Source of the DNA: Bacteroidales bacterium
Lineage (GTDB): Bacteria; Bacteroidota; Bacteroidia; Bacteroidales; UBA932
Assembly (NCBI GenBank): GCA_017471965.1
Contig: JAFURF010000035.1
Span: forward strand, 1-49,734
Direction of reading: 5' to 3'
DNA: 49,734 bases
Part shown: piece by piece, positions 431-7,106 of the stretch
Layout of the letters: every line of letters begins with the position of its first letter
Numbering within the stretch: the stretch's first letter is position 1
Notes under the pieces: generated by a model
Database searches by the model: none
What the model saw: the letters and a program-made list of their open reading frames with translations, nothing else
What the model was told of the DNA's origin: nothing
Program-made: the position numbers and the translations under genes

Positions 431-1996
431 TTACTGTTTCTTTGTATATCCCTGTATCTCGCCGGTCGACTCGCCATTGGCAGCACCTGGAGTAGGAACT
501 GCATATGCCCAGTCACCTGTTCCGTTCGGAACGCGGGAGAATGATGCATCTGTCCTTTCATCATCCTTGAACGACTCTTCCATGAACGGATCCTCATCTG
601 CTCCACGAACGAATCTGTCCACTACATTACCCTCTGCATCGACAAGTTCAAACTTGACTCCCTTCTTTGCTGAAAGACCGGCATTGAAGCCAAGAGCAGG
701 ATCTGTCTGATCTGCCTCAAGAACAAGGTACTGGCCGACACCAAGTTTAGTGCCTGAAGGTGCTGTCCAGCATACGTTGTATTTTCCGGCAACATCCTCT
801 GCATCGGCTGCATATTTCCTGATTGTCCATCCTTCAAGAGAACCCTCTGCATCACCGGCATTGTAAAGTTCAATGTACTTCTGAGGACCATCTGGAATCT
901 TGTTGCCGCAAAGTTCATTCAGAACCACCTTTGCTGCTGCAGATGGCTGGTCTGGCTCTGATGGCTGATCCGGTTCAGGAGTCTCGGTTCCTTCAAGAAC
1001 CTCGGCATTGTTGTTTGAAGCATTCTTTGTCGCTGTCTTGAAGATCACCAGATTGGTCGAGCCGTCCGGCTTGCGTCCGAAAGTATAACCGTTGTCGCGA
1101 AGACCTGAATCCTTAGAGAATGCCGGGATCTCGATTTCCTCAACTATCTCACCTGCCTTGTCATGCAGGAAAAGCCAGTCACCGCCGGCACCAAGTCCGA
1201 ATGATGGATTTGTAGGATCATCCTTGTCAACATCGATAGTAAAGAATCCGCCTGCAGGGACCACTGTACCCTCTGGGAATACGAACTTGGTCTCCTCCTC
1301 ATGCTTGTCATCATAGAGAGAATAACCTGAAATGTCGAAATCAGCAGAAGTAGAGTTATAGAACTCGATCCAGTCGACAGAAGCATCCCATCCGTCAGCG
1401 ACATACACATCAGAATTGTCATGATATACCTCGTTGACATAAAGTCCGCAGGTATTCACGAACTGACCGCGTGCAGGACCTTCATTCTTTACGCCCTTGG
1501 TTCCGTTCTGGAAAATCTGCCACTCCTTAGCGCCGTCAGTAACACGACCGTAAGTCTCGTTCTCATTCATGCTTGGAAGAGCGACCTCATCGATTACCTT
1601 GAGGTCGGAATTTGCAAGAACGATCACCTCTTCAGGTCCCTTGCTGAGACCCCATGCAGGATACTTCACAGGGTTGTTGAGAAGACCGTACTTGTCGCAG
1701 TCAACGACAAGGTGTCCCTTGGCAGCGATGACTGTACCCTTAGGGAAAGCCCAAGCCTCTTCTGATCCGCCGCCTTCCCACAAGAGGACATCAGTAAGGT
1801 CTATATCCTCGTTGGTGGTATTGTAAAGTTCGATCCAATCGAGGTCATCTGCCTCAGACTGGTCGCTGAATGTGTACACCTCGTTGATGACCACACCCGT
1901 TACATCAGTGATGTGGAAATATGTACTTTCATCCCTTACGCAAGACACTGAGGTCATGGCGATGAGGGCAGCAAGTGCTAAAAATAACTTTTTCAT
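431..1996 (-). CDS. Secreted lipoprotein with three lamin-tail domains
   Basis: 521 residues. The N-terminus MKKLFLALAALIAMTSVSC is a lipoprotein signal peptide with the lipidated Cys at residue 19. Three lamin-tail-like beta-sandwich domains follow, each opening with the hallmark V(I/L)NE(V/L) and carrying a W/Y-IE-(L/F)YN motif: roughly residues 35-100, 185-255 and 355-430. A Pro/Glu/Asp-rich linker (EPDQPSEPDQPS) separates the second and third. Bacterial lamin-tail domains are surface adhesion or scaffold modules, often beside nucleases, phosphatases or CotH/VTC-type genes. It lies 58 bp after the porin gene and 32 bp before the CYTH-like gene, so is probably co-transcribed. No catalytic domain is visible; the specific role is unknown. 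Confidence 0.8.
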   Translation of the reverse strand: MKKLFLALAALIAMTSVSCVRDESTYFHITDVTGVVINEVYTFSDQSEADDLDWIELYNTTNEDIDLTDVLLWEGGGSEEAWAFPKGTVIAAKGHLVVDCDKYGLLNNPVKYPAWGLSKGPEEVIVLANSDLKVIDEVALPSMNENETYGRVTDGAKEWQIFQNGTKGVKNEGPARGQFVNTCGLYVNEVYHDNSDVYVADGWDASVDWIEFYNSTSADFDISGYSLYDDKHEEETKFVFPEGTVVPAGGFFTIDVDKDDPTNPSFGLGAGGDWLFLHDKAGEIVEEIEIPAFSKDSGLRDNGYTFGRKPDGSTNLVIFKTATKNASNNNAEVLEGTETPEPDQPSEPDQPSAAAKVVLNELCGNKIPDGPQKYIELYNAGDAEGSLEGWTIRKYAADAEDVAGKYNVCWTAPSGTKLGVGQYLVLEADQTDPALGFNAGLSAKKGVKFELVDAEGNVVDRFVRGADEDPFMEESFKDDERTDASFSRVPNGTGDWAYAVPTPGAANGESTGEIQGYTKKQ

Positions 1997-2054: not shown

Positions 2055-3491
2055 TTAGAATGCAACCTGGAAACGGAGAGCAAGCATCTGGTAGTCGACA
2101 CCGGCTTTGCCGTTTGGAGCAACAACCTTTTCAGGATTCTTTGTAGGAACACCCTTATCGTCATATCCGACATAACTCTTGCCCTTTGCGTTTGCATAGC
2201 GGTCGTTGTCATTATACTGCCAGTTGAGGACGATCTTCACGTTCTTTGTAGGATAGTAGTTGAGACCCACTGTATAAGCCTGGCCGCTACCTCCGAAGAT
2301 GTTGGTGTCAGCGACCTTGCTGGAGAAGAGTTTGCCGGTGTTGAAGTCAGCATACTCATAACGGAAAGCGATCTCGAGGTTGCCCCACTTGTGCTCTGAA
2401 GTGGTACGGGTGTACTTTGCGCCGTCTGCGTCATAGTTCTGAGAGCCACCGAAAAGAAGCCAACTTGCCTGTGCATACCAACCCTCTGCCCACTGGGTAG
2501 GAAGCGGATTCACCTTCTGGTCGAGGTACATACCGCGTGCGATGTAGGCAGTCTCATAGCGGAGTTGCTTCCAGTGACCTGCGAGTTCCACTGTCCATGC
2601 GAGTTCATGGTCAAGACCCTTTACATCATCTGTGTCAAGATACTTCTTGCGGTTTATGCTGGTAGAGTTGCGTGAACTGTAACGACCTACGAAATAACCG
2701 TCTGTGCTGGTGAGTTTAGGCTCACGATATGAAACGGCACCACCGATGTGGAGAGAAGAGGTCTCATTGTTGACAGGACGGAAGACAACCTTTCCTGTGT
2801 ATGAAAGTCCTTCGTTGTAACCGTAGTCCTTGTTGCCGTCTTCCATGTAGGTCTGCTCCTCAGAACTGCTGAGTTCAGGACCGAACACTCCTGCAGATCC
2901 CCAGAACCACTTGTTGGACCATGTAGCATTGATACCGAGGTGGCGTGAAGGAGCGAGGTAAGTCACCATTGCACGCTCCATGAACATGAGGTAGCGTGAA
3001 GTGGTGTTTCTCTGGATAGAGAAGTTCTCCTTGAAGTTACCGGCCTTGATTTCAAGACCAGGGACTCCGGTGAAGGCTACAAAGGCGTCCTTGAGTTCAG
3101 GAGTACCGCTTGTCCAGTCTGTATCAAGTTCACCATACCAGTTCTTGTCGAGTTGCGCCTTCACGGCAAAACGGGTACGACGCAGACTCATACCGTTTCC
3201 GATATGACTTGTGTTTGACTTGCCGTCAAGTTCCTTGGCGCAGAAATCAGGAGCACCGAAGAATACGGCAGCATCTGCCTGAACACGTACGTCAAACCAC
3301 ATCTTGTAGTTCGCCTTCTTGTTCTGGAATACAAGGATACCATCCTGCATCACTGCCTGAACAGGAAGAGACTGTACTGTCTGTCCATACTGGTTGACGT
3401 CCAGAACCTCCTCTGCCTCCTGTGCGGCATCCTGTGCTGAAGCAGCAAACGAAGTCATAGCCGCCAGAGCGATTAACATTAACTTTTTCAT
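2055..3491 (-). CDS. Porin O/P family outer-membrane protein
   Basis: 478 residues with a cleavable signal peptide (MKKLMLIALAAMTSFAASAQ). The mature protein has the porin O/P layout: a short N-terminal region, the early strand motif SLRRTRFAVKAQLDKNWYGELDTDW, alternating aromatic and charged strands, and a C-terminal strand ending in F (ALRFQVAF). Members related to Pseudomonas OprO/OprP transport phosphate or pyrophosphate across the outer membrane, although many Bacteroidota homologues have unknown substrate. The gene starts 21 bp after the Pit-HTH gene, and DUF47 lies one gene further upstream; this supports phosphate as substrate but does not prove it. Confidence 0.82.
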   Translation of the reverse strand: MKKLMLIALAAMTSFAASAQDAAQEAEEVLDVNQYGQTVQSLPVQAVMQDGILVFQNKKANYKMWFDVRVQADAAVFFGAPDFCAKELDGKSNTSHIGNGMSLRRTRFAVKAQLDKNWYGELDTDWTSGTPELKDAFVAFTGVPGLEIKAGNFKENFSIQRNTTSRYLMFMERAMVTYLAPSRHLGINATWSNKWFWGSAGVFGPELSSSEEQTYMEDGNKDYGYNEGLSYTGKVVFRPVNNETSSLHIGGAVSYREPKLTSTDGYFVGRYSSRNSTSINRKKYLDTDDVKGLDHELAWTVELAGHWKQLRYETAYIARGMYLDQKVNPLPTQWAEGWYAQASWLLFGGSQNYDADGAKYTRTTSEHKWGNLEIAFRYEYADFNTGKLFSSKVADTNIFGGSGQAYTVGLNYYPTKNVKIVLNWQYNDNDRYANAKGKSYVGYDDKGVPTKNPEKVVAPNGKAGVDYQMLALRFQVAF

Positions 3492-3512: not shown

Positions 3513-5138
3513 TTATATTGATTTTATGAAATTAACAAGGTTATCTCCCTTTGAAAGGCCGAGTTTCTGCCGCAGGCGGTACCTGCTTATCTCAACGCTT
3601 TTGGGAGTGATGTTCATCAGTGTAGCGATGTATTTTGAAGAGAAACCCAATCGCAGCATCGTTGCAAGCCGTATTTCCTGCTGGGTCAGGTCCGGGAAGC
3701 GTCCGGTAAGTTTCGCATTGAAGTCTTCATGGAGATACTCTGCCTGAGCATAGAAATACTGCGAATCCACATCCCTGTCGTACGAGAGTCTCTGCTTGAG
3801 CGAGGCGCTGAGTCTTGCAATCAGTTCATTACGTTCCGACTCGTCAGCGGATTTCGACAGTTTCCGGACAATTTCATTCAGAGACTCAAGAAATTCCTTC
3901 TGTTCCACTATGCTCAAAGCCACATTCATCACCTCCTGCTTCTTCATCTCTATGGAATTATGGAGGGCCTGGTTCTCGGAAAGGACGACCTTCAGTTCCA
4001 TGTCGTTCAACGCCCTGCTGTTCTCATATATCTGCTGCTGCTGCAGGTACACCAGACCCGCCATTGCCTCACGCTGTCTGCGGCTGCGGTGCATGTATCC
4101 GGCAAAGACCAGAGCAATCACCAGAATCAGGGTCGATGCCAGAACAGTGAAGTCAACTATATGTTCTTCGTTTCTTATCGATATATGGATAAGTATGAAG
4201 GATAACAGAAACGAGCCTGTCGGGGCAGAGATGAGAGCAAAAGCCTCTCTGACGTATTCCTCGGTCTCGACAAGTCGTGTCCTTTTCACAAATCCTGCCC
4301 CCGCTATGGCCGCAAAGACCAGAGAACTGACTGATATAGGGGCAGGGTGCAGGCCCAGCATTGATGTCGGACGCTCGAACGAGAAAAAGAACAGGGTTCC
4401 GGCCACCGCAAAACCTACAGACAATATAGTGTATATTGAAAAATCCTCATACAGGTCGGCATTCCTGTCACTTTCAGAGCGGAGCAGCGATGAGAGCACT
4501 GTCATCACAGCCACCAGAATCAGAACCGCCACCACTATGGCCAGATCATTACCGAATATTACAGATGTCCCTGCCAGAAGGAATCCTCCACAGTTCAATC
4601 CTATGGCGCATCCGGTCAGCACCATACCGGCGATGACCGCAAGCCTCATATAGTATGACAAGGTCACAAGATGGATATGCGACCTGTGTAGAGTCTTCTT
4701 GAATATATATCTGAATGATGCGGACAGCAGAAATGCCATCAGAGGAGCGGCAAGAAAAGAAAACATCATTCCTGCATTGAGGTCACCGGTCGTACAATAG
4801 CCATATGCTGCCATCGCACCGATAAAAGCATAGGCCACCGACCCCGAAACGGAGAACATCTTCAATATGACAAGTATCAGGAGCGAAGAAAGGATACAGA
4901 GTATGAGGTATTGTCCATCCCCGGCCCCGAACCTCCAGCATTCCATCAGCGATTCTCCGACTCCGGCTCTGCCGCTGAGCATGACACACGAAACAAGGGC
5001 CAGAGCGAGCAATACCTTGGAATACACCCTCTTCAGTGCCGATGCATGCATATAGACATCCGTCACTGCAGGATACTCCTTCGCGAAGAACCACAAGGAG
5101 ACAAGAGCCAGAAACGATATGAGGCAGATCAGGGACAT
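3513..5138 (-). CDS. Pit-permease-like membrane domain fused to coiled coil and LuxR-type HTH
   Basis: 541 residues from the ATG at 5138, chosen because it lies 4 bp after the DUF47 stop; an in-frame ATG at 5174 would overlap that gene. Residues 1-350 are multi-pass membrane. Their order matches the two-fold repeat of Pit/PNaS phosphate permeases: FSVSGSVAYAFIGAMAAYGY near 95 fits the PVSTTHxLxGAxxGxG repeat, and APISVSSLVFAAIAGAGF near 266 fits its second copy. The diagnostic GxNDxxNA motifs are absent; TGCAIGLNCGG near 175 lies where the second is expected. Residues 355-480 are coiled-coil-like. Residues 484-541 (LTQQEIRLATMLRLGFSSKYIA and onward) form a LuxR/GerE-type DNA-binding domain. 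I infer a transport-dead phosphate sensor acting directly on DNA; active transport is the alternative. Confidence 0.68.
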   Translation of the reverse strand: MSLICLISFLALVSLWFFAKEYPAVTDVYMHASALKRVYSKVLLALALVSCVMLSGRAGVGESLMECWRFGAGDGQYLILCILSSLLILVILKMFSVSGSVAYAFIGAMAAYGYCTTGDLNAGMMFSFLAAPLMAFLLSASFRYIFKKTLHRSHIHLVTLSYYMRLAVIAGMVLTGCAIGLNCGGFLLAGTSVIFGNDLAIVVAVLILVAVMTVLSSLLRSESDRNADLYEDFSIYTILSVGFAVAGTLFFFSFERPTSMLGLHPAPISVSSLVFAAIAGAGFVKRTRLVETEEYVREAFALISAPTGSFLLSFILIHISIRNEEHIVDFTVLASTLILVIALVFAGYMHRSRRQREAMAGLVYLQQQQIYENSRALNDMELKVVLSENQALHNSIEMKKQEVMNVALSIVEQKEFLESLNEIVRKLSKSADESERNELIARLSASLKQRLSYDRDVDSQYFYAQAEYLHEDFNAKLTGRFPDLTQQEIRLATMLRLGFSSKYIATLMNITPKSVEISRYRLRQKLGLSKGDNLVNFIKSI

Positions 5139-5142
5139 TGTG

Positions 5143-5790
5143 CTACATTGTGCGTCGTATGGCCATGACGGCAAGTTGGTCCGCTACATTTTCAGCCGCC
5201 TTCGAAAGATTCTCGATATGAAGGGCAAAGTATCTCAGATGGAACTTCTCACTGAGTTTCAGGTCGGTCATGTTATGGAAAACCGACCGTTTGATGGTCT
5301 GGGAATACTTGACAGCCTCCTTCTCATAGAAATAAGTCCTGCTTATCTTGTCCGGCACAGTCTCAGGAGACCTGAAATAAGCCTTGGCGGCCGGAATCAC
5401 AGCCTCAACGGCAAGTGTAGAGAACTCCGTCAGTTTCATGAATTCCTGATTAAGTTCTGACGGAATGAAAGGTGTCTCTATCTCAAACTGGAAAAGACTG
5501 TCGTTAAGAATGCCTGTGATATTTCTTGTCTTTTCGAAAAGACGCATCACATCACCTCTTGAGCGCACCAGGGCGGTCTGAGTGTAGAGGGAGTTCTCTA
5601 TTTCCCGTCGGAGAACCTCAGACTCGCTTTCAAGAGAAGACATCCTCTGAAGATTGCCTTCAAAATCCTTCTTGTTGGAATAGAGATAATTCCTGACACC
5701 GTCCTTGAATACAAGCACAGCCTGATCCATCAGATCGAAATAACGGTCAATGTCGTCAATCAGTTTGTTAATTTTCTTTCGTCCGAACAT
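5143..5790 (-). CDS. DUF47 family PhoU-like protein (Pit accessory)
   Basis: 215 residues, almost entirely helical, with the MFGRKKINKLIDDIDRYFDLMDQA start and the YFYEKEAVKYSQTIKRSVF and FALHIENLSKAAENVADQLAVMAIRR segments typical of the DUF47 family. DUF47 proteins resemble PhoU, are cytosolic, and are usually encoded beside Pit phosphate permeases, which they are thought to regulate. Here the downstream neighbour, 4 bp away, is the Pit-like membrane protein with an HTH, which fits that pairing. It begins 13 bp after the beta-propeller gene, so translation is probably coupled within the operon. Confidence 0.85.
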   Translation of the reverse strand: MFGRKKINKLIDDIDRYFDLMDQAVLVFKDGVRNYLYSNKKDFEGNLQRMSSLESESEVLRREIENSLYTQTALVRSRGDVMRLFEKTRNITGILNDSLFQFEIETPFIPSELNQEFMKLTEFSTLAVEAVIPAAKAYFRSPETVPDKISRTYFYEKEAVKYSQTIKRSVFHNMTDLKLSEKFHLRYFALHIENLSKAAENVADQLAVMAIRRTM

Positions 5791-5803: not shown

Positions 5804-6559
5804 TTAGAAACTGAAATCTATCTTGTAAAGTCTGGTGGCATCCTCATCGCTTCCCACCCAGATGCAATTGCGTTCCCTGTCCACACAGACAGATTCCGCA
5901 TTATCTATGAAAGGTACCGGATATGACGCCAGCAATTCTCCTTCGACAGTGCATATGAAAATCATGGCCTTCTTGGAATCCGCCACCCAAAGCAGATCCT
6001 CCTGCGGCTCATAACAAAGACCCGCAATTTCAGATGCAAATGACGAGAGGGATATCTTGGATATCATGGTACCGTCCTTGCGATACTGCCACAGGTTAGC
6101 ATCTTTCTGACTTCCGACCAAGAGAATGTCATCTTTATAATACTCGACCGCTTCAAGGCCGCTGTTCTTATAGTTGTCTTCGACCGCCTCGCTTACAGCA
6201 AAAGCGATCTCCTGCGAATCATAGGCAGGAGCCGCAAGAACATGGACCTCCTGCTTTCCCTCGATGGCAAGGTATATGTCGCCTGAAGACGGATCGACAG
6301 TGATTCCCTCCATATCCGAACCATATGTCCAGACATCGGTCACCTCACCCTCGAATGATATCTCCTTGACCACACCTTTATCCCCGCATGAAAGAAGCGC
6401 AGTACCGGCCCTGTTCATACACAGGCCCGAAAGTTCATCCACGTCCACCTCATAGACTGAATAATCACCTGCGACAGGCATACTGACATATTCGTTGCAT
6501 GCAGTCGGAACCTGTGAAGCGAGAAGAACAACAAAAAGAAGAATTCTGATATTTTTCAT
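5804..6559 (-). CDS. SdiA-regulated/phytase-like beta-propeller lipoprotein
   Basis: 251 residues from the ATG at 6559. That start gives a signal peptide with a lipobox-like end (LLASQVPTAC) and lies about 24 bp after a TAACTTTG promoter box, whereas the longer open frame to 6703 would run through the promoter. The body shows propeller-blade repeats (ELSGLCMNRAGTALLSCGD, MEGITVDPSSGDIYLAIEG, GLEAVEYYKDDILLVGS, IAGLCYEPQEDLLWVADS, AESVCVDRERNCIWVGSDE), the pattern of the SdiA-regulated (YjiK-like) family, related in fold to esterase-like phytase propellers. First gene of the putative phosphate operon. Enzymatic activity cannot be judged from the sequence. Confidence 0.75.
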   Translation of the reverse strand: MKNIRILLFVVLLASQVPTACNEYVSMPVAGDYSVYEVDVDELSGLCMNRAGTALLSCGDKGVVKEISFEGEVTDVWTYGSDMEGITVDPSSGDIYLAIEGKQEVHVLAAPAYDSQEIAFAVSEAVEDNYKNSGLEAVEYYKDDILLVGSQKDANLWQYRKDGTMISKISLSSFASEIAGLCYEPQEDLLWVADSKKAMIFICTVEGELLASYPVPFIDNAESVCVDRERNCIWVGSDEDATRLYKIDFSF

Positions 6560-6582: not shown

Positions 6583-6590
6583 CAAAGTTA
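6583..6590 (-). promoter_or_regulatory. Bacteroidota -7 box for the phosphate-type operon
   Basis: On the minus strand the bases read TAACTTTG, fitting TAnnTTTG, 23 bp before the ATG at 6559. No clear TTTG is seen at -33, so the promoter may need an activator. Confidence 0.5.
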
Positions 6591-6749
6591 TCCATTTTTA
6601 GTTCTTTTCGCTTTGTAGAGGGGGTAGGCCTATTCATGGAGTCAGAGCGACACCACAGGGAATCCAACAATATATAATTATCTATCAAGGACTTATGAAA
6701 CAAATAAACCCTTGTTAAATTTCAGTTACAGAGAGGAATTGTAGAGGTT

Positions 6750-7106
6750 TTATAGAGTCTTATATGACAGGATATGGGCCGTTATTGCAGCCGCAAGGGC
6801 TATAAAGAAGAGGCGGAAGGCCCAATGCTCAGCGACGAACACGGCACAGTTCAGAAGGGTGATCCACACCATGCTCACCGAGATTATCTTGATCCTTAGA
6901 GGTATGGCCTTGTGCACCATGAAACTGCTGATGTAAGGACCAAGCCTCGGATGGTTGAGAAGCCAGTCATATAGAGGCCTGGATGATTTGAGGAAGAGAG
7001 CGGCAGACAGCAGGAGGAAAGGAGTGGTCGGCAGTACGGGCAAAAAAATCCCGACCACGCCCAGACACAAGGAAACCAGACCTATACCTGCCAGCAGATA
7101 CTTCAT
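6750..7106 (-). CDS. DUF454 (YbaN-like) inner-membrane protein
   Basis: 118 residues. It has the family signature at the N-terminus (GLVSLCLGVVGIFLPVLPTTPFLLLSAALF), followed by a short loop (RPLYDWLLNHPRLGPYI) and two more hydrophobic segments near 75-90 and 93-112. Length and layout match the DUF454/YbaN family, whose function is not established. It is monocistronic and divergent from the DUF4491 gene, with which it shares an interlocked promoter region. Confidence 0.88.
   Translation of the reverse strand: MKYLLAGIGLVSLCLGVVGIFLPVLPTTPFLLLSAALFLKSSRPLYDWLLNHPRLGPYISSFMVHKAIPLRIKIISVSMVWITLLNCAVFVAEHWAFRLFFIALAAAITAHILSYKTL

Follow-up and report, generated by a model that had tools for sequence, protein, structure and literature searches.

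The question raised by this locus is whether a transporter can be turned into a receptor that acts directly on DNA. In the window, by which is meant the whole 49,734-nt stretch of Bacteroidales DNA analyzed here, translation, Pfam and a Pit profile identify a minus-strand gene (3513..5138) for a 541-aa protein composed of an eroded Pit domain, a long helix and a LuxR-type helix-turn-helix (HTH). An initial annotation had proposed, with no strand given, that one frame at this place joins a membrane region to an HTH, and this is borne out: the frame runs from 5138 to 3513 with no internal stops, and the plus strand across 3513-5138 has many. Residues 1 to approximately 318 are Pit-like, an extra membrane helix lies at approximately 327-345, and a GerE HTH occupies residues 484-530 (PF00196, E 6.7e-7, 29.3 bits against a cut-off of 23.5), with a sub-cut-off Pfam match to Sigma70_r4_2 overlapping it. 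A Pfam scan of the protein at E ≤ 1 detected no PHO4 (PF01384), kinase or SSS domain. With moderate confidence, the protein is read here as a one-component activator that derives from a transporter, is held in the membrane, senses phosphate and switches on the operon encoding it. The annotation had likewise suggested a transporter converted into a kinase-free sensor acting on DNA; of that proposal the Pit ancestry and the HTH hold, and phosphate sensing and loss of transport are what we infer from the evidence below.

The relatives of the protein provide most of this evidence. Five relatives in Bacteroidales MAGs, of which two come from goat, one from buffalo, one from sheep and one from a source not stated, can be aligned with it end to end at 54-60% identity. 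Across these six sequences 138 of 182 positions are invariant in residues 360-541, as opposed to 72 of 345 in residues 1-345, and the recognition helix KSVEISRYRLRQKLGL, beginning at residue 513, is identical in all six. A family-level search of 149 genomes added nine full-length eroded relatives together with two loci, L016 and L017, in which an unmistakable Pit domain is joined to the same type of C-terminal end. Among 295 Bacteroidales genomes, at least 20 fused loci lie outside the family of the window (L067-L085 and L087); the query is matched over nearly its full length in 18 of them (L067-L084), and L085 and L087 have longer linkers. The same genomes contain an unfused Pit at no fewer than 10 loci (L086 and L088-L096), all of these counts being lower bounds since at most four candidates were scored per genome. 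Outside the order, 14 of 392 genomes of the phylum gave a match at E ≤ 1e-40, and the 12 loci that were read all look unfused by eye, with a DUF47 gene upstream. The genome search suggested by the annotation thus recovered 15 eroded fusions, including the window, and 21 motif-bearing ones in Bacteroidales. GerE is matched at E ≤ 0.1 by all 15 of the former.

The set of 36 leaves out L071, a motif-bearing fusion broken by one in-frame stop (L071:1498-3315), and L018, which has no Pit. The latter, seen in genome G066 only (L018:838-1821), joins DUF47 in frame to a LuxR HTH and contains an N run inside the DUF47 part. L086 is counted as unfused, yet it stops 10 codons short of where the fusion match ends and could be a truncated fusion; downstream of it, stops were seen but no HTH. 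At L028:1-2463, a short LuxR protein that lacks a Pit is by eye encoded next to genes for a canonical Pit and a DUF47-like protein.

That the membrane region is related to Pit, as the annotation held, is upheld by profiles built from these relatives and not by Pfam. Both stretches that it had quoted were found, VSGSVAYAFIGAMAAYG starting at residue 97 and APISVSSLVFAAIAGAG at residue 266. PHO4 is clear in L016 (E 3.8e-55) and L017 (E 2.9e-54), with two motif-bearing fusions scoring 188 and 185 bits, and it is matched at E ≤ 0.1 by five of the 15 eroded fusions, L008 exceeding the cut-off (36.4 vs 33.7 bits). A profile of motif-bearing fused Pits scores the window membrane part at 38.6 bits and the 15 eroded domains at 12.4-92.7 bits; 3,000 shuffles of those domains peak at 10.6 bits, and none of the 15 is reported when reversed. 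In the reciprocal search, the query was a profile of eroded domains and the targets were 363 ORFs from the window and the fetched loci. Eroded fusions ranked first, DUF47-linked Pits second (at least 78 bits, the exception being one half of the L071 frame with its stop, at 38.6), and canonical Pits third, from 27 bits down into noise (an L028 ORF at 16.6 bits). Because the scores exceed both controls and the reciprocal ranking agrees, the membrane region is, on this profile evidence, a decayed PiT domain sharing common ancestry with the transporters. A canonical-Pit profile, built from the 12 of 30 loci that passed a motif filter, reports just three of the 15, with scores of 9.0, 7.4 and 4.2 bits that are barely or not at all above the best shuffle at 7.2, and the link to Pit thus runs via the DUF47-linked subfamily.

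The structural check that the annotation had proposed for this region gave little. Two AlphaFold2 runs of six sequences each reached mean pLDDT values of 58.6 and 49.7. Searched with Foldseek, the full weak model had no match at E ≤ 0.001, found response-regulator HTHs at probability 1.00 and did not place TmPiT (6l85) among the best 50 of 408 matches; with the membrane part of the model, 6l85_B ranks 23rd at E 4.5. PDB sequences gave no match at E ≤ 10 to the 15-sequence eroded membrane profile. The low-confidence model of the window protein does contain a single long helix at residues 324-429, which goes some way toward the coiled coil of the annotation: the helix is there in the model, and the segment between the last membrane helix and the HTH is probably a coiled coil.

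As far as gene content and sequence can tell, Bacteroidales preserve a series in which DUF47 accompanies first an unfused Pit, then a motif-bearing Pit-LuxR fusion and finally an eroded one. In a tree of C-terminal ends, the 36 fusions group together against four other LuxR ends (support 99/94; four of 17 candidate outgroup loci passed the motif filter). The 15 eroded fusions are united (94/95), the group in which they nest (93/87) also contains motif-bearing ones, and the first split sets L082, L085 and L087 apart from the rest. The membrane-domain tree also unites the eroded group (100/99) and sets it apart on very long branches. Long branches can mislead, and the order of events is therefore taken from the C-terminal tree.

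Has the eroded domain stopped transporting? The window protein lacks the two GANDxANA signatures with the critical Asp, and the missing GxNDxxNA motif of the annotation is confirmed, as the aligned stretches read WFFAKEYPA and IGLNCGGFL. Human PiT2 requires D28, E55, S113, D506, E575 and S593 (PMC3126765), positions that were mapped onto the fusions via TmPiT and L016. A protein that still moves phosphate through altered residues while regulating could account for several of the remnants: all 15 eroded fusions have an acidic residue at D28, the first-motif Asp (Glu in the window), and retain the second-motif Asn, and Ser persists at S113 in the first hairpin in 12 of 15 and at S593 in seven of 15. 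This reading is nonetheless improbable, given that the closing Asn of both signatures is gone in all 15, that PHO4 goes undetected in the window protein and that the membrane part has diverged far more than that of the motif-bearing fusions. We consider it likely that the eroded domain no longer transports.

Single residues must be weighed with care. E55 is missing, D506 is Asn and E575 varies in both the motif-bearing fusions (21) and their unfused sisters (10), so that the term motif-bearing is no proof of transport and the Asp missing at D506 in the eroded fusions counts for little. The first signature is changed in the fused L081, L083 and L084 and in the unfused L093 (Glu for Asp). Outside Bacteroidales, the first-motif Asp is His or Asn in seven of 12 unfused DUF47-linked Pits, which may still transport, a further point for a transporting regulator; loss of this Asp alone is thus not a sensor hallmark. 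These seven (L120, L122, L123, L124, L125, L127 and L128) read GANHAVN, GANHAVG or GANNAVG at the first signature and have no HTH.

What distinguishes the eroded fusions is where constraint falls. Mean identity of the membrane and C-terminal parts is 25.9 and 54.2% among the 15 eroded fusions vs 57.0 and 41.4% among the 21 motif-bearing ones; constraint has swapped from the membrane end to the C-terminal end. The membrane part remains under purifying selection, with dN/dS of 0.11-0.21 in six of eight eroded pairs (dS being often near saturation, and saturated in the other two) and of 0.06-0.07 in two motif-bearing pairs (dS again often near saturation). The eroded fusion is therefore not a dying gene, although selection of this kind would also be expected of a protein that still transports. 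S127, N182 and D232 are invariant across the 15 eroded fusions.

These invariant residues also bear on whether the membrane domain is a mere anchor, with the signal arriving via DUF47 or the coiled coil. The domain is weakly conserved between genera, and L018 joins DUF47 straight to the HTH, Pit-less and with a porin gene next to it, as an anchor would allow. Against this stand the three invariant residues and a polytopic domain of approximately 320 residues that is kept in all 15 eroded fusions and is under selection in the pairs tested; L018, moreover, is a single case with an N run in its DUF47 part. A mere anchor is therefore rather unlikely, and a receptor function for the domain is preferred.

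The gene neighborhood of the fusion offers a possible connection to phosphate. Four bases upstream of it lies a gene for a 215-aa DUF47/PhoU_div (PitR-like) protein (5143..5790, minus strand; PF01865, E 1.7e-7), and 21 bases downstream a gene for a 478-aa outer-membrane porin of the Porin_O_P family (2055..3491, minus strand; PF07396, E 8e-32). The first operon gene (5804..6559, minus strand; PF06977, E 4.4e-9) encodes an SdiA-regulated/NHL-type exported protein; its ATG is at 6559, which places it between the candidate operator and DUF47, and no such ORF of at least 150 aa was seen in the corresponding place in L001-L005. The operon possibly ends with a gene for a lamin-tail-domain protein (431..1996, minus strand; PF00932, E 1.2e-42), and by eye a lipoprotein-like gene follows the porin in four of L001-L005, L001 being the exception. 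By tblastn, all 15 eroded fusions have DUF47 upstream and the porin downstream, DUF47 is beside all 21 motif-bearing fusions, and the porin accompanies 18 of the 20 motif-bearing fusions with DNA beyond the gene. The exceptions are L080 and L085, the latter with 646 bases of contig left after the gene and no porin next to it; L067 reaches the end of its contig and falls outside this count. Porin_O_P was confirmed by Pfam in the window, L016, L068 and L018, where the porin follows the DUF47-HTH gene. A CYTH-domain gene, for a possible inorganic triphosphatase, is found near DUF47-Pit in L001 (9824-10294, by Pfam), L002, L003, L005, L080, L088, L089, L091, L092, L095 and L096.

NptA, from another Pi transporter family, is present in all 10 family-search genomes with an eroded fusion, and six of those ten also encode a further PHO4 protein. 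NptA occurs in 18 of 21 genomes searched, including genomes without the fusion. PstB (TIGR00972) is above cut-off in five of the 21, and since G029 alone among these has a fusion, no link between PstB and the fusion is seen.

The ligand could instead be another oxyanion such as sulfate, which we regard as unlikely yet worth keeping in mind: two motif-bearing fusions match the sulfate permease (CysP) model below its cut-off, at 77 and 94 bits vs 400, making sulfate or another oxyanion possible, and the "phosphate-selective" label of the Porin_O_P family is a loose one. On the other side, DUF47 adjoins all 36 fusions, CYTH genes are near some loci, and the PHO4 scores of two motif-bearing fusions reach 188 and 185 bits, it being understood that sulfate permeases belong to the PHO4 family too. 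A survey of 926 genomes further argues for phosphate, as it found PitA in 97.8% of genomes with PitR, adjacent with one exception (PMC13170248). We lean slightly toward phosphate as the signal.

Topology bears on whether the HTH lies in the cytoplasm. A simple hydropathy scan finds 11 hydrophobic segments in the window protein. In all 36 fusions the Pit core and the coiled coil are separated by an extra hydrophobic segment, with a mean above 1.5 over 19 residues, and in all 36 it is followed by 2-7 basic residues within 15 positions, L087 having an equal number before it; the three unfused proteins scanned, L091, L094 and L096, terminate at the preceding helix. Tag studies place the C-terminal end of PiT1 and PiT2 outside, and another model places it inside (both cited in PMC3126765). 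If the Pit end is outside, a single added helix would put the HTH in the cytoplasm, and the basic residues after this helix likewise place the following part there.

Where would the HTH bind? A repeated CTCTACAA was spotted in the upstream DNA of the eroded group. In the window, the putative proximal operator copy (6613..6620, minus strand) starts 30 bases upstream of TAACTTTG (6583..6590, minus strand), which fits TAnnTTTG, the Bacteroides -7 box consensus. The putative distal operator consists of an exact copy (6739..6746, minus strand) 126 bases from the proximal one, an imperfect copy CTCTATAA (6750..6757, minus strand) 11 bases from the distal exact copy and a weak copy with two mismatches, CTCTGTAA (6726..6733, minus strand), at whose position L002, L004 and L005 carry CTCTACAA or CTCTACAT.

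Sites were counted in the 260 bases before each operon and compared with shuffles. The eroded group has 25 exact sites in forward and none in reverse orientation, at 11 of 15 loci (shuffled mean 0.09), and, with up to one mismatch, 43 forward and two reverse sites, at all 15 (shuffled 2.2). The motif was chosen from this group, and only the motif-bearing and unfused groups are therefore an independent test. Among motif-bearing promoters, sites with up to one mismatch number 28 forward and two reverse, at 18 of 19 loci (mean of shuffles 3.0, maximum 8), and exact sites occur at five of 19 (shuffled 0.12). Unfused DUF47-Pit promoters have a site with up to one mismatch in one of nine (shuffled 0.69) and an exact site in none. 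The 19 include L071 and exclude L018 as well as L079, whose 96 upstream bases lack TCTACA; the nine exclude L089 (55 upstream bases). L016 and L017 are outside the 19, and their upstream DNA was examined separately (as L115 and L116): there are two exact sites for L017 and, within approximately 200 upstream bases, none in operon orientation for L016.

Spacing and natural variants add to this picture. Distal and proximal copies are 125-127 bases apart in seven eroded loci (the window, L001-L005 and L008), this pair having been chosen by hand where several copies exist, and the other eight differ. In the motif-bearing L067, L068, L081 and L084, three copies are 42-43 and 54-56 bases apart. L068, L071, L073, L074, L075, L077 and L078 agree in the distance of 66-69 bases from the start of the nearest copy to the -7 box, other loci differing. 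L080, a single case, is the one locus of the 19 that lacks a site, and its recognition helix, ETDTAIQSIRNKL, is degenerate; a CYTH-type gene stands in the place of the porin, which was not found in the L080 DNA examined. In L009 and L011, EVC replaces EIS in the recognition helix and CACTACAA replaces CTCTACAA, which in close relatives counts as one event. L013 has only a one-mismatch site, and L085 has a site though its next gene is not a porin.

It is conceivable that a regulator other than the fusion, such as a PhoB homologue, recognizes the CTCTACA repeats. With direct repeats of 7 bases and gaps of 4, their arrangement is like that of the E. coli Pho box, and the tandem copies here show the same 11-base period. 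For B. fragilis, a paper on PhoB names a Pho box, without a sequence in the passage concerned (PMC3547664). Such a regulator is nevertheless very improbable, as the sites track the HTH fusion and not DUF47-Pit alone (18 of 19 vs one of nine), and L080, with its broken helix, has none. The tandem pattern CTCTACAN{4,6}CTCTACA, moreover, has eight matches in 26 genomes, six of them in the fusion-operon promoter (G029, G092 and G440-G443); the pattern run backwards as a control has six in the same genomes. It is absent from nine of the 15 eroded-fusion genomes, including the window's own (64% complete), whose distal copies are imperfect. Across 198 genomes of the order it has 14 matches in 13 genomes, and none in the 12 motif-bearing carriers recognized among the genomes listed. 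One genome, G163, has 35 matches to the backwards control vs at most 1 per strand in the other genomes listed, perhaps a repeat family. A wider regulon was not found by the tandem-pattern scan or at NptA loci: no phosphate gene was recognized by eye near two tandem matches outside the fusion-operon promoter (L097 and L104), and an exact CTCTACAA is somewhere, inside or outside a promoter, in two of 10 NptA loci (L111 and L113).

Taken together, these observations make it very likely that the HTH of the fusion recognizes direct repeats of the CTCTACA type in the promoter from which the fusion itself is expressed, and the fusion probably regulates both itself and the porin. Activation is suggested by the copy that lies approximately 30 bases upstream of the -7 box, close to position -33. 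The 126-base spacing is approximately 12 helical turns, and a loop between distal and proximal sites is thus possible, though we propose it only tentatively. In the mechanism envisaged, the Pit fold together with DUF47 would read the phosphate supply; when phosphate is short, DUF47 would let go, fusion dimers would form through the coiled coil, and the porin, DUF47 and the receptor itself would then be made. An evolutionary account, plausible at best, is that a phosphate importer was first joined to a transcription factor, so that it monitored the phosphate it carried and acted directly on DNA, and that transport was then lost in the family of the window. What was left would be a dedicated phosphate receptor, holding phased promoter sites in a loop at the membrane. 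Under this account, decay would have started at least twice more among the fusions (in L081, and in L083 and L084).

Bacterial phosphate sensing is usually pictured as a transporter and PhoU or PitR coupled to a kinase pair. The fusion described here may unite receptor and DNA binding in one chain, and its extant relatives seem to record how a transporter became a receptor, step by step. With a predicted operator and natural variants at hand, the idea is open to direct tests, and fusions that still bear the motifs could show whether transport itself is the signal.

Membrane LuxRs, transporter-kinase fusions and a transporter-guided CadC are known already; what appears to be new is the combination of Pit and LuxR. 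As the annotation had surmised, no regulator of this kind was found in the open-licence literature searched. By architecture, with 11 hydrophobic segments and an HTH, the window protein belongs with the 10-12 TM LuxRs. The E. lenta 12-TM LuxRs (DadR, CadR and HcdR) likewise have 10-12 membrane helices and a C-terminal LuxR HTH and are membrane activators of neighboring genes, but they come from an Actinobacterium and respond to catechol inducers (PMC9734109). The main text of that paper does not contain the word "transporter", and its passages on these proteins mention no Pit, DUF47 or motif-bearing intermediate. CbrA and MxtR also couple a transporter domain to a signaling output, and CbrA still transports histidine; they differ in having an SLC5 fold and a histidine kinase with a separate response regulator as output (PMC7918813), and the SLC5-kinase combination of SSS/STAC sensor kinases is absent from the window protein. 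CadC is likewise a membrane-held one-component regulator that receives part of its signal via a transporter, LysP, but it has an N-terminal DNA-binding domain and the transporter is a separate protein (PMC5936718). The window protein is also without the cytoplasmic N-terminal winged HTH, single membrane helix and C-terminal periplasmic sensor of ToxR-like regulators (PMC5936718). With PiT transporters (TmPiT 6l85 and human PiT2) it has ancestry, the two-fold repeat and hairpin remnants in common, and it differs from them in lacking GxNDxxNA and several PiT2-critical residues and in its DNA-binding end. A parallel in gene order is the PitR-PitA pair, in which a DUF47-type accessory protein, named PitR in S. 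aureus (PMC7326077), is encoded next to a Pit and works with its cognate transporter (PMC13170248). In S. aureus, however, the output of PitR-PitA passes via the two-component PhoPR (PMC13170248), whereas in the window the Pit relative itself has the DNA-binding domain.
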